45,921 bases of DNA from a virus. How positions within the stretch are numbered: position 1 is the first letter of the stretch; every line of letters starts with the position of its first letter. Position numbers and translations under genes: made by a program. The notes under the pieces are model-generated. The model did not search any database. It was not told the origin of the DNA and saw nothing but the letters and a program-made list of their open reading frames with translations. The stretch covers positions 1-45,921 of IMG/VR virus record IMGVR_UViG_3300030060_001743. One strand, written 5' to 3'. Positions 20,473-27,899 of the stretch are shown one piece after another.

Positions 20473-21437
20473 GCGTTAAATACGACGACTTAATCGAACA
20501 CAACGTCAAGGCGTACAACAAGCACGAGCTCGCCAAGCTTTGCAACGGCGGAGGTGCTCAAGTCAAGAGCTCGGCTCGTATCATAGCTATCGAGTATGAA
20601 AGTATCGACGATATGCTTAAGGTACTTAAGCAAGCCGACACTGATATATGGGAGCGAACTCTTGACCGCCAGTACGAGATGTGGTGGACAATGTCCGACG
20701 TTATTGACATTGAAGGTAGGCAAGAGCAACTCGATATAATACGTCGAGGTTATAGCACGACGAGTATATACGAGCACTACACCGAGCTCAAGCGTAAGCT
20801 CAACGCTAACCCCGACAACTTAGAACGTTTGGGTGCTATGGGTGTTGATTGCCGTCGTAAACGACGAGCCGACCTTGCGGGGTGTATCGTCAACATAGAT
20901 AAGGCTATGGCGGGTCTCGACCCTATGGAAAGTCTCAAGCGTCAAAACCAGTCCAAATGTGTGAGGGTATTTATAGACCTTGCTAGGCTTGCAGACGTAG
21001 AGCCCGAGCACATACTCGAGAGCTCTTGCTATGCTATTGCCGTCGCTAATACTCTTGAGGAAAAAGGTTATGCCGTCGAGATAAAGTTCGGCACTACCAA
21101 CTACAACTACGGGCTCAATGGTTGTGGTCGACATAATACAAGCGACGGAGGTAGTGTGATTGTCCGTACTTCCTTCACGGCTAAGAGACCCGACGAGCCA
21201 GTCAACGAGGCTAAGCTCTTGACCTTCTCGTCAGTAGGTATCTTTCGAGACTTCATATTCGATACTAGACGACGTATTCTCGGTCAAGGTAGTATGGGCT
21301 CAAGTCTCTACTCGGTAATTAGACCCGCAAACAACGAGGAATTCTACCGAGAGTTTGCCGATTGTGATGTCTATGTCGGACACAACTCAAGTCTCGAGAC
21401 TATCATCACGGGTATTGAAGGCGTGCTATTGTCCTAG
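20469..21437 (+). CDS. Partner of the AAA+ ATPase, degenerate VWA-like protein, 322 aa
   Basis: Starts on ATGA within the ATPase stop. Residues about 160-250 have a Rossmann-like pattern: a strand with CVRVFIDLARLADV in the place of a MIDAS loop, a helix (SSCYAIAVANTLEEKGYAV), then EIKFGT, and later LLTFSSVGIFRDFIF. This resembles the phage proteins that accompany MoxR/CobS-like ATPases (DUF7192-type), where the metal site is often lost; here DxSxS is not intact. The N-terminal helical part may bind the ATPase. Its cellular target is unknown. Confidence 0.65.
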   Translation: MSVKYDDLIEHNVKAYNKHELAKLCNGGGAQVKSSARIIAIEYESIDDMLKVLKQADTDIWERTLDRQYEMWWTMSDVIDIEGRQEQLDIIRRGYSTTSIYEHYTELKRKLNANPDNLERLGAMGVDCRRKRRADLAGCIVNIDKAMAGLDPMESLKRQNQSKCVRVFIDLARLADVEPEHILESSCYAIAVANTLEEKGYAVEIKFGTTNYNYGLNGCGRHNTSDGGSVIVRTSFTAKRPDEPVNEAKLLTFSSVGIFRDFIFDTRRRILGQGSMGSSLYSVIRPANNEEFYREFADCDVYVGHNSSLETIITGIEGVLLS

Positions 21438-21459
21438 ATTTATAACTCACGTTATAAAT
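21438..21459 (+). repeat. 9-bp perfect hairpin right after the stop codon
   Basis: ATTTATAAC-TCAC-GTTATAAAT begins directly after the TAG of the VWA-like gene. It is AT-rich and has no T run of its own. It may protect the mRNA end or help the terminator that follows 15 nt later. Confidence 0.5.
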
Positions 21460-21472
21460 TGAGCACTGAAAG

Positions 21473-21508
21473 AAGGGCTAGTAGGTTTCCTACTAGTCCT
21501 TTTTTTTT
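21473..21508 (+). terminator. Intrinsic terminator of the AAA+ cassette
   Basis: A 12-bp stem, AGGGCTAGTAGG-TTT-CCTACTAGTCCT with one G-U pair, is followed at once by T tract 21500-21508. It is one of the strongest terminators in the window and cleanly closes the higher-GC cassette. Confidence 0.85.
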
Positions 21509-21728
21509 GTCGTGCTCAAACTCTCTTCTGCTATCTCTTGATGATACATCAAGAGCACATTTTTCTGAGCACTTTCACCTACTTCTTGATTGATTTTTTT
21601 TGTAGGTTATGAGTTGACACTCAGAACTAGCAAAAAAAATACCTACACGCAAAGTCCTAGAGGGTGGGTCGAACAATCCCTTCTACCCCGCACACATTAA
21701 CGCAACCATTGACCGACGACAATGAAAC
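21509..21728. other. Gene-free stretch with alternative pairing segments
   Basis: No gene is visible between the terminator and the next promoter. CTCTTGAT/ATCAAGAG forms an 8-bp stem (about 21533-21555). GTAGGT at 21602-21607 can pair either with ACCTAC at 21577-21582 or with ACCTACA at 21641-21647 (then using TGTAGGT). Runs of 8 T and 8 A flank these. Three GAGCAC/GTGCTC words also fall here. It may be a regulatory leader or a protein-binding region. Confidence 0.4.
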
Positions 21729-21789
21729 CAAGTAATTTATTTACTACGTAAATTAATTTCTTGACAAGTACCGACTGAAACCCTTAAGA
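21729..21789 (+). promoter_or_regulatory. Promoter with upstream dyad operator, copy 1
   Basis: A 39-bp block (21729-21767) is repeated without change at 23404-23442. It contains an imperfect 11-bp inverted repeat with a 3-bp centre (core TTTAC-TAC-GTAAA), directly followed by the -35 TTGACA (21761-21766). After 17 nt comes TTAAGA (21784-21789). The weak -10 and the dyad abutting the -35 suggest activation, or repression, by a phage regulator. Confidence 0.75.
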
Positions 21790-21860
21790 TATTATATGCG
21801 AACAACGACACTACAAAATTTTTTCATCTCAATTACCGCCACATTGATTGTGGAACTAAC

Positions 21861-21925
21861 GCCCGTTGAGTTCGGTCTAGGTTGGTTAGGCGGTAGCCGT
21901 AGACCTGGACGTGTTAGAGACGGGC
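21861..21925 (+). promoter_or_regulatory. Nested hairpin in the leader of the 147-aa gene
   Basis: Three nested stems: GCCCGT (21861)/ACGGGC (21920), GGTCTA (21874)/TAGACC (21900) and GGC/GCC at the tip (21889-21898). It lies between promoter copy 1 and the ribosome site AGGAG at 21941. A structured 5' leader, possibly for mRNA stability or ligand or protein control. Confidence 0.5.
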
Positions 21926-21953
21926 AAGTATTTAATAACGAGGAGATTATAAA

Positions 21954-24966: not shown

Positions 24967-25158
24967 ATGCTCGATAACGAAACTACTAAGAAGTTAAGTA
25001 ATGGTAAACGCTCAATGTATACGTTTGTGTGGGAACACGAAGAGACTTTGAGCACTAGGATTTGGCAGTGTATTGCAAAAGATATACGAAAAGCCAAAGA
25101 AAATCTACATCAAAATATAGAGGTAGATGAAAAAAAAGTTAAGGTTTTTATAAATTAA
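24967..25158 (+). CDS. Hypothetical protein, 63 aa
   Basis: AGGAG 9 nt before the ATG. A basic, helix-rich small protein (SMYTFVWEHEETLSTRIWQC, then AKDIRKAKENLHQ) ending just before the promoter of the candidate RNA. The preceding 69 bp hold no gene. Unknown function. Confidence 0.65.
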   Translation: MLDNETTKKLSNGKRSMYTFVWEHEETLSTRIWQCIAKDIRKAKENLHQNIEVDEKKVKVFIN

Positions 25159-25161
25159 TTC

Positions 25162-25190
25162 TTGACTTTCGCTAACATACTAGTTAAACT
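25162..25190 (+). promoter_or_regulatory. Promoter of the candidate structured RNA
   Basis: TTGACT (25162-25167), 17 nt, TAAACT (25185-25190). The predicted start, 6-8 nt downstream, coincides with the first base of the first RNA stem (GCTAG at 25196). No coding sequence follows for 500 nt. Confidence 0.6.
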
Positions 25191-25195
25191 AGTAG

Positions 25196-25505
25196 GCTAG
25201 CTAGATAGCTCAAGCAAGAGCTATCAAGGCTAGCGGTGTGTAGCAGTGATACAAGAAAAAGTGAGAGGGTCGTTATTGTGATACCCAACTACACACCAAA
25301 GTATTAAGACCACTGGGTTGTTTGTCCTAGCTTTGTCAAGTATTGACTTTGTTTTGTCAAAACGGCGAAGTTAATATTAGCTAGGGTTTTTTTCAGTGGT
25401 CATCATTAGGGTCGCTTTGTGTACACTAAAGCTACGATATGGCTATAAGCGGTAGAGACCCTACAAAGAGAGAAGGCGAGTACGAAAGTGCTTGCCTTTT
25501 TTTTT
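25196..25505 (+). ncRNA. Candidate structured small RNA, about 305 nt
   Basis: No open frame or ribosome site is present, but stems tile the whole stretch. P1 GCTAG/CTAGC enclosing GATAGCTC/GAGCTATC (25196-25234). P2 GGTGTGTAG/CTACACACC (25235-25297). P3 ACCACTG/CAGTGGT enclosing CCTAGCT/AGCTAGG (25309-25400). P4 TAGGGTC/GACCCTA enclosing GCTTT/AAAGC and CTAC/GTAG (25407-25463). A terminator ends it. P1 and P2 abut, as in coaxially stacked RNA. It has its own promoter. It matches no RNA class I know. Confidence 0.65.
25473..25505 (+). terminator. Intrinsic terminator of the candidate RNA
   Basis: AAGGCGAG (25473-25480) pairs with CTTGCCTT (25491-25498) with one G-U pair and a 10-nt loop. T tract 25497-25505 follows directly. 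Confidence 0.8.
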
Positions 25506-25548
25506 ATTTATAATTATTTTAAAGTATTGGTATGGCTACTAAGAGAGA

Positions 25549-25674
25549 AGGTAGTAGCGTCGTATAAAACAAGAAAGGATTTCTTACCCTTGGTCGACGT
25601 TGCTATCTTTTTTTTTACGCTACCTTTGGAGGTAAAGTTGTACCAAGTGCTCAGAAATGTTGAGCACACGACGC
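25549..25674 (+). promoter_or_regulatory. Attenuator-like leader before the nuclease/recombination operon
   Basis: AGGTAGTAGCGTCG (25549-25562) pairs with CGACGTTGCTATCT (25595-25608) over 14 bp with three G-U pairs, enclosing a small AAGAAA/TTTCTT hairpin and followed by T tract 25608-25616. GCGTCGT of the left arm (25557-25563) can instead pair with ACGACGC (25668-25674), which would undo the terminator. A second hairpin, GTGCTCA/TGAGCAC, lies between. This looks like a terminator/antiterminator pair upstream of the operon. Confidence 0.55.
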
Positions 25675-25697: not shown

Positions 25698-26594
25698 ATG
25701 GGAGCAATAGGATTTATTTGTCCCGACAAAGAAGTAATAAAGTTTGAGGATTGTTTTGAACATTGTCGTATGTCTGAAAGATGTATGTCAGTAGCGACAT
25801 TGAAAGCTATGTCAGAACAAAGACCCGACAATCGACCACCGAGCACCACAGAACTTTTATCAGGAACTTGTGAGGCTTTCTTAAAAAGAACACAACAATA
25901 TTTCATCAACCCCCAAGAACGTGCATACGCACTTATGGGAACAATACACCACAACAATTTAGAAAATCAAAACCTAGGGTCTCAACATTTAGTTGAGGAA
26001 AAACTAGAGGGTCTAGACATCACAGGAATATTGGATTACTACGACAAAGAAAATGAAATGTTGATTGATTACAAAAATACAGGAAGCTTTAAGGCTATGA
26101 AAGTGCTCGGTATGACGAGCACTCAAGTACCAGACCCGACAGGAGCGAGATACAAACGCTCAGGAAAATGGGGTCGAGCGGGAGAAATAAAGAAAGTAAA
26201 GCAGTGGTATCGAGATGAAAGTATTGCAGACTTTGGAGACTGGTTGTATCAAGTAAATATGTATCGATATTTGCTAGAACAAAAAGGTTATAGAGTAAGG
26301 ACAATGAAACTTCAAATGAATATTAGAGACGCAAGTATGGCTATGTCAAGAGATAGAGGAATAGATAGGAACATTTACTTTGTTGATATTCCTTTTGTAG
26401 ATGACGAAGAAATAGTGGAATACTTCTCGAAGAAAAGAGATTTGTTGGTGAGTGCTCTTGAAAATCTTCAAGTTCCCAGCCAGTGCTCAGAAGCAGAAAC
26501 TTGGGAAGGAAAGAAGTGTGAAAGTTATTGCGAGGTAAGACACCTATGTCCATACGTATCAGATAATAATTTTCTTGACCAAGACGTAGAATAG
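25698..26594 (+). CDS. Cas4-like Fe-S PD-(D/E)XK nuclease, 298 aa
   Basis: AGGAGG 7 nt before the ATG at 25698 sets the start; the longer frame lies inside terminator sequence. Nuclease motifs: GTIHHNNLE (His), DITGILDYYD (Asp), EMLIDYKNT (Asp...Lys) and a QVNMYRYLLEQ helix. Four Cys near the N-terminus (FICPD...DCFEHCRMSERC) and four at the C-terminus (QCSEAETWEGKKCESYC...LC) suggest an iron-sulfur cluster as in Cas4/AddB-type exonucleases. With ERF and SSB downstream it is the probable end-resecting exonuclease of the phage recombination system. Confidence 0.8.
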   Translation: MGAIGFICPDKEVIKFEDCFEHCRMSERCMSVATLKAMSEQRPDNRPPSTTELLSGTCEAFLKRTQQYFINPQERAYALMGTIHHNNLENQNLGSQHLVEEKLEGLDITGILDYYDKENEMLIDYKNTGSFKAMKVLGMTSTQVPDPTGARYKRSGKWGRAGEIKKVKQWYRDESIADFGDWLYQVNMYRYLLEQKGYRVRTMKLQMNIRDASMAMSRDRGIDRNIYFVDIPFVDDEEIVEYFSKKRDLLVSALENLQVPSQCSEAETWEGKKCESYCEVRHLCPYVSDNNFLDQDVE

Positions 26595-26636: not shown

Positions 26637-27284
26637 ATGACGACAAAGAAAGAAACAGAAGTGCCAACTCTTACGAGACCCGCACTTCACTTCGAAATGT
26701 CGAGCACCATAGCAAAACTTGCTTTGGCTCAGACAAAAGTTCAAAAAGAAATCAAAGACTTGCCTAAAGAGAGTAAAGGCTTTGCTCACAAGTACACTAC
26801 GTTTGATAAATTAGTTCAGTATCTTAGACCTATATTGTCTAAGCACGGAATATCTTTTATTCAAATGCCTTGTGGGGATAATGAAAACGTGGGCGTTATA
26901 ACTATATATATGCACACGAGCGGAGAGTATATATCTAGCAAGATAGAAACTCAAATCATACAAGCACAAAACAAATATCAATCAATGGGTAGTGCTATAA
27001 CTTACTTTAAAAGATATAGCCTTGCTTCTTTTGTTGGTATTGCAAGTGATGAAGACACCGACGGAAACGTCAAAGCAGCACCGAAAGTTTCGCAGCCAGC
27101 GAAGAAAAAATTAAGTGCTCAACAATTCAAAGATTTAAACTTACTAGTTGCAGATGAGAAAGAAGACTTTAGAGATAAGGTTGTACACTCAGTACAAAGT
27201 TTAAATATACATCAAGATAATCTAGAGGCTTGGACTAAGAAATACAACCAAGCCAAAGAGAATAAGGAGAAGAAAAATGGTTGA
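26637..27284 (+). CDS. ERF-family single-strand annealing recombinase, 215 aa
   Basis: Anneals complementary single strands during recombination-dependent replication. The ERF core is clear: FAHKYTTFDKLVQYLRPILS, then GISFIQMP, EYISSKIETQ, and the signature SMGSAITYFKRYSLASFVGI followed by DEDTDGN. The C-terminal tail is variable and basic. It ends in an 8-nt overlap with the SSB gene, and the exonuclease gene is directly upstream, the standard annealase/exonuclease pairing. Confidence 0.9.
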   Translation: MTTKKETEVPTLTRPALHFEMSSTIAKLALAQTKVQKEIKDLPKESKGFAHKYTTFDKLVQYLRPILSKHGISFIQMPCGDNENVGVITIYMHTSGEYISSKIETQIIQAQNKYQSMGSAITYFKRYSLASFVGIASDEDTDGNVKAAPKVSQPAKKKLSAQQFKDLNLLVADEKEDFRDKVVHSVQSLNIHQDNLEAWTKKYNQAKENKEKKNG

Positions 27285-27810: not shown

Positions 27811-27835
27811 AATTTGTGTCGTCGTATAAAAGGCG

Positions 27836-27873
27836 AGCCCTACATTAAACTCTTCCTTCTCTTGAGTAGGGCT
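27836..27873 (+). terminator. Hairpin after SSB, possible partial terminator
   Basis: AGCCCTAC (27836-27843) and GTAGGGCT (27866-27873) form a perfect 8-bp stem with a 22-nt loop; only three T follow. It may cap the exonuclease-ERF-SSB message or cause weak termination. Confidence 0.45.
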
Positions 27874-27899
27874 TTGCCACAAACAACATAGGAGAATTT

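Follow-up and report, generated by a model that had tools for sequence, protein, structure and literature searches.

A candidate small-RNA transcription unit whose terminator may contain the −35 element of the next promoter in one clade of uncultured phages

Few phage small RNAs are known, and they come mostly from enterobacterial phages. In the Q-dependent late leader of phage lambda (pR′–6S RNA–tR′), an intrinsic terminator lies ~200 nt after the promoter and the product is a short untranslated RNA. The put RNAs of HK022 are sequence-conserved two-hairpin elements. GOLLD, ROOL and OLE are strongly conserved RNAs of several hundred nucleotides, of which GOLLD and ROOL are often found in phages or prophages. 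Base-pairing small RNAs also have a phage case, lambda PreS (PMC12197685).

The window analysed here is a 45,921-nt stretch of a 46.4-kb uncultured virus record, in which positions 25162–25505 are non-coding and carry a sigma-70-like promoter (P1), tiled stems and then an intrinsic terminator (T1). Its relatives are IMG/VR contigs found through the exonuclease encoded downstream. As in lambda pR′–tR′, a promoter, a short RNA and a terminator lie ahead of an operon. Here, however, that operon serves recombination and replication, the terminator arm itself resembles a −35 box belonging to a further promoter, and no Q-like gene or qut site is seen, with 19 window proteins scanned against PHROGs and 10 against Pfam. 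As with the cis-acting antitermination RNAs of HK022, a structured phage RNA stands between an early promoter, which it follows directly, and a terminator, but the RNA bodies are seen to differ between relatives. Like GOLLD, ROOL and OLE, the RNA is structured and non-coding, but it is short, variable and without an Rfam match. In most relatives the unit resembles small RNAs of the GcvB, DapZ and PreS type in having a hairpin, an apparently free CUCCUU plus G/U-rich segment and an intrinsic terminator. By Rfam it is not homologous to GcvB or DapZ, since the best DapZ match, in relative L018, reaches 20.6 bits against a threshold of 56 (E 0.41) and a permissive scan of the window RNA gives no match to either family; in addition, the window RNA lacks the CUCCUU segment.

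A sequence-only reading had proposed that this region encodes a new structured RNA of five stem domains, with its own promoter and terminator and without a reading frame. Folding and the promoter and terminator scans place P1, four stem domains (H1–H4) and T1 where that reading had put them (Table 1). Inside the region no ORF exceeds 34 aa, in agreement with the claimed absence of a reading frame; the one exception is the exonuclease frame, which, if extended upstream to a GTG start, has its 5′ end here. The exonuclease gene is followed by Erf, an ssb-like gene and, further on, DnaB. The AlphaFold model of the 63-aa ORF upstream has the order helix–strand–strand–helix–strand (pLDDT 75); a fold search with it gave no significant match, and the ORF was dropped as a candidate RNA-binding partner. 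Cultured phages contain neither a DNA match to 25162–25505 nor a homologue of the exonuclease, and a search of bacterial genomes also found no exonuclease homologue, so that there is no clue to the host. No tRNA or tmRNA was detected by ARAGORN.

Table 1. Features of the RNA unit and its flanks, in window positions
Feature	Position	Strand	Basis or remark
63-aa ORF (MLD...), syntenic upstream partner	24967–25158	+	Stops 3 nt before P1; 63–73-aa homologues directly upstream of the unit in relatives
Promoter P1, TTGACT (25162–25167)–17–TAAACT (25185–25190)	25162–25190	+	9/12 consensus match; conserved position in relatives
Perfect 15-bp inverted repeat ACTAGTTAAACTAGT over P1 −10 box, operator-like	25179–25193	.	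Lies in a CTAG cluster that is among the window's two densest
Stem H1 (GCTAGC...GCTAGC)	25196–25234	+	Folding; near-identical hairpin in L010
Stem H2 (GTGTGTAG...CTACACAC)	25235–25297	+	Folding; particular to this phage, no counterpart seen in relatives
Stem H3 (GACCACTG...CAGTGGTC), U-rich internal loop GUUGUUU/GUUUUUUU	25308–25401	+	Folding; counterpart in L006
Stem H4 (AGGGTC...GACCCT)	25407–25463	+	Folding; not conserved
Intrinsic terminator T1 (GGCGAG...CTTGCC, T9)	25466–25505	+	18-bp stem, GAAA loop; best terminator match of the scanned region
Promoter-like pair P2, TTGCCT (T1 3′ arm)–17 nt (T-tract)–TATTTT	25492–25520	+	Fixed spacing across loci
Structured exonuclease leader	25527–25651	+	z −5.7; stems of differing sequence in relatives' exonuclease leaders
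Terminator-like hairpin T2	25540–25617	+	23-bp, runs into T9
PD-(D/E)XK exonuclease, first gene of recombination/replication operon	25698–26594	+	PDDEXK_1; phrog_2139 exonuclease
Erf-like single-strand annealing protein	26637–27284	+	phrog_2324 and phrog_155

The match score of P1 is ordinary, since 9/12 matches are common in the scanned region (56 found against 36.8 expected); the promoter is credible because it is kept in relatives, with TTGAC and TANNNT at 17–18 nt in the same slot in 18/18 loci listed, the window included. Its predicted start, ~25197, lies one base into stem H1. The inverted repeat over the −10 box occurs as an exact site only once in the window, and in L010 and L024, too, a CTAG cluster at P1 ranks among the two densest of the genome. 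The L017 clade has no CTAG cluster at P1 and still carries the unit, with different inverted repeats (TTGACACC...GGTGTTAA) overlapping the promoter. The palindromes over P1 and the CTAG clusters suggest that P1 may be set by a repressor.

The region as a whole folds with a z-score of −7.5. The RNA predicted from 25197 reaches −116 kcal/mol (z −9.4) and, without T1, −93 kcal/mol (z −5.7), and thus the stems go beyond chance even when the terminator is left out, in line with the original proposal. When 684 stretches of 269 nt from both strands of the window were ranked by folding, ranks 1 and 3 (starts 25461 and 25193, both on the + strand) fell in this region and rank 2 in the intergenic region at 21.4 kb. 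The minus strand of the region also folds (z −5.2), as expected from stems that are palindromic and CTAG-rich.

The arrangement P1–RNA–T1, between the MLD... gene and the exonuclease, recurs in all 17 relatives with an exonuclease identity of at least 66% and upstream DNA present. An upstream scan of 23 distant exonuclease relatives (43–57% identity) found no such terminator/promoter pair, and on this sequence comparison the unit is a marker of one phage clade. The conserved parts are P1 and T1, joined in many relatives by a short segment, CUCCUU/UCCUU. The RNA body is ~309 nt long in the window, 190 nt in L006, 158 in L008, 155 in L009, 163 in L010 and ~81–113 nt in the remaining clades. The idea of a five-domain fold of ~300 nt as a conserved object is therefore not supported, because the relatives have ~81–190 nt with other hairpins. 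The expectation that individual stems are kept in homologues and change in compensating ways is borne out in part: H3 and its counterpart in L006, matched by hand, differ by five double-compensatory pairs and share a similar U-rich internal loop, and H1 has its counterpart in L010, but comparison by eye revealed none for H2 or H4, so that for part of the fold the outcome which the sequence-only reading had named as refuting is seen. In the short clade (L017, L018, L026, L029 and kin) covariation extends over both hairpins and T1: 95.6% of cells are paired and 6 pairs changed on both sides, compared with 1.6 in shuffles. A covariance model of 13 RNAs left only the terminator as consensus and was set aside; minus-strand mini-ORFs (SD plus ATG) within the unit of some relatives were rejected as they are not conserved. 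Rfam 15 at curated thresholds gave no match in the window or in 15 relatives, and relaxing the thresholds for 25162–25505, L018 and L024 brought up chance-level matches only. A new non-coding transcription unit heading the recombination and replication genes is thus backed as a candidate by synteny, covariation and the lack of an Rfam match. The unit is real and not catalogued in Rfam, and its general kind, a phage small RNA or leader unit, is known; the unusual part is the overlap between the terminator and a −35 element.

T1 fits the description of a textbook terminator that it had been given (Table 1), and its stem pairs partly with its own T-tract. The two arms of the stem evolve differently: the 3′ arm is constant, with CTTGCC in 16/17 loci tabulated, whereas the 5′ arm drifts by G–U-compatible changes (GGCAAG, GGCGAG, GGTGAG), the pattern expected if the 3′ arm doubles as a −35 box. 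TTGCCT is found in the 3′ arm at all loci except L027, which has TTGTCT, and a TANNNT follows at exactly 17 nt in 16/16 loci counted; averaged over 49 other spacings, the box is present in 5.5%. The 16 loci include several close relatives and the spacing was spotted after the fact, but the effect is too large for after-the-fact noticing to explain. The hexamers themselves are weak (8/12 in the window, TTGCCT and TATTTT); it is conservation that makes it probable that the −35 element of P2, the putative promoter of the exonuclease–Erf operon, lies within T1. In L024 (2966–3003) and L027 (2967–3003) ~5 nt separate the end of the P2 −10 box from the exonuclease ATG, which leaves no room for another promoter and predicts a near-leaderless exonuclease mRNA.

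Besides this promoter-like pair overlapping T1, the sequence-only reading had overlooked a second structured, terminator-like element at 25527–25651, in the exonuclease leader. A 16-nt near-repeat of the T1 arm (CTACAAAGAGAGAAGG / CTACTAAGAGAGAAGG) lies at 25536–25551, and T2 with a T-tract is found in the window and L006 only. In the L017 clade and L009, the leader keeps a constant core (AGCACUUAAAAGGAGUGUUGCAGG...CCUG) inside varying closing stems (CTGGAGTAG/CTACTCCAG; CAGGTAGTGATA/TATCGCTACCTG), at L017:1563–1680, L009:5841–5980 and kin, and L020 has yet another closing stem; no Rfam family matches this leader element. At L006:5880–5960, L008:5915–5985 and window 25540–25617 the leader has a hairpin whose small loop contains or adjoins GGA and which is followed by ACCC; its stem covaries from AAGAA/UUCUU to GAGAG/CUCUC, and the order of its parts resembles that of a circularly permuted L017-type core. 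L018 (2700–2990) and L021 (140–305) have an extra structured 180–220 nt with a boxA-like GGCTCTTTAA between the leader element and the exonuclease.

The architecture, the exact spacing, the folding beyond chance and the covariation are properties of the sequences themselves, and our preferred reading of them, a tentative one, is a small-RNA transcription unit combined with a promoter switch, in which polymerase at T1 occludes P2 and the RNA of the relatives acts in trans. P1, overlapped by the operator-like inverted repeats, would drive a non-coding RNA terminated by T1. That terminator's 3′ arm would double as the P2 −35 and the T-tract as the P2 spacer, so that a polymerase passing or pausing at T1 would cover P2 and make the activities of P1 and P2 mutually exclusive until P1 is off. 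The released RNA would be a stable, fast-evolving product. In most relatives the apparently accessible CUCCUU/UCCUU between the hairpin and T1 probably acts on ribosome-binding sites in trans, and in the window RNA, where the segment is missing, the larger fold more likely provides stability or protein binding. We infer transcription, P2 activity and pairing in trans from these features, and occlusion from geometry alone. One DNA segment may thus serve both as the terminator of a small RNA and as the −35 of the next promoter, with a spacing exact across the clade and a replaceable RNA in between, each phage fitting a new RNA into a constant frame; we regard this as possible, if short of probable. 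Such an overlap is a concrete, easily testable design in which the ending of one transcript is coupled to the initiation of the following one, and it offers a plain reason for the constant terminator arm. A syntenic unit in uncultured phages, its promoter and terminator constant and its body turning over, also gives a defined place in which coordinates, instead of sequence, can guide the search for new phage RNAs.

The arrangement could also be read as an attenuated leader, in which P1 would be the main exonuclease–Erf promoter, T1 (and T2 in the window) would be attenuators passed with the help of a phage or host factor, in the manner of Q at lambda pR′–tR′ or of HK022 put RNA, and the short RNA would be the terminated leader. 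P1, T1 and the operon are collinear, nascent stems precede T1, and the near-copy of the T1 arm in T2 stands before the exonuclease. We nonetheless consider this unlikely, as a pure leader would have no use for the promoter-like pair of fixed spacing that every relative has inside T1, a T2 that runs into a T-tract is confined to two phages, the RNA bodies are too different for one common antitermination signal, and the scanned window proteins (19 with PHROGs, 10 with Pfam) include no known antiterminator. A DNA element is very unlikely: the palindromic CTAG-rich stretch would then serve as a replication origin or a cluster of operators, with the RNA fold as a by-product, consistent with the folding of the minus strand, the dense CTAG cluster at P1 in the window, L010 and L024, and the adjoining replication genes. 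Hairpin sequences, however, change while pairing stays, with G–U allowed on one arm; the P1–T1 orientation is fixed in all relatives; the L017 clade keeps the unit without the CTAG cluster; and there are no iterons, the repeat search giving just one repeat of 16 nt and one of 11 nt, each in two copies and both from T1/T2. That the RNA is a decoy against host defence is hardly credible: a fast-changing body under constant signals could mean an arms race, but neither tRNA or tmRNA, a known RNA family nor direct repeat-array features are present.

The RNA might instead be a purely trans-acting antisense RNA, its CUCCUU and G/U-rich stretch blocking host or phage ribosome-binding sites, with the T1/P2 overlap as mere compaction. 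The possible anti-Shine–Dalgarno segment, (A)CUCCUU or UUCCUU (CUCCUUU in L008), comes directly after the last hairpin and before T1; TCCTT is invariant in 13 aligned RNAs, and the segment is unpaired in the ensembles of L017, L018 and L026, partly unpaired in L008 and not predicted clearly unpaired in L024. For L023 and L035, target prediction ranks first the start region of the gene that follows the ssb-like gene (−26.5 and −27.8 kcal/mol), and the weak DapZ match of L018 points the same way. Against this, a free CUCCUU is missing from the window, L009 and L010, the predicted target is absent from the window's clade, and in the L017 clade the site upstream of the post-ssb gene was rejected as unsafe, being partly in its own hairpin (GCGTGGG...CCCACGC). 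The longest complementarity between the window RNA and its own genome is 13 nt, at chance level (shuffled mean 12.1). A scan of bacterial genomes for a dedicated ribosome-binding leader exactly antisense to the segment gave ~4–5 independent matches against ~3 expected, and this candidate was rejected; in unrelated phages, matches to two versions of the segment do occur in leaders. The idea that the RNA pairs with the exonuclease leader was likewise rejected, as the two do not co-vary: L020, L024 and L027 keep the segment yet lack the leader core. We consider a purely antisense role unlikely, and for the window RNA a structural or protein-binding role is as likely as pairing with ribosome-binding sites.

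Several further elements were observed in these genomes. Window positions 21437–21953, heading the early + strand genes, are likewise non-coding: their hairpins are strong (z −6.75), some stems look like terminators, and a TTGACA–18–TAAGAT promoter is present. Between the ssb-like and the next gene (27815–27885) there is a strong hairpin (AGCCCTAC...GTAGGGCT), which in relatives reads GCGTGGG...CCCACGC. In the distant relatives L055–L061 and L069 the place of the RNA unit, just before the exonuclease and directly behind a promoter, is taken by a small ORF (MKNKFQTSFVLDRELWIKFK...) resembling a ribbon-helix-helix repressor. Among hexamers, the strongest over-representation in the window is that of GAGCAC/GTGCTC (90 sites against 41.7 expected, on both strands and mostly at 16–36 kb), with flanks (T)(T/C)GAGCAC(C/T)(T); it is also the top hexamer in the L010, L024, L008 and L009 genomes, and is possibly a genome-wide binding site or stoperator-like motif. 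The sister subclade L023 (L091–L093), L026 (L097–L098) and L035 (L099–L101) has no GAGCAC excess and carries instead a dispersed palindrome around CGTTTAAACG with flanks A...T; with 43–51 strand-counted sites in each of the L023 and L026 genomes, it has the look of a dispersed operator distinct from the first.
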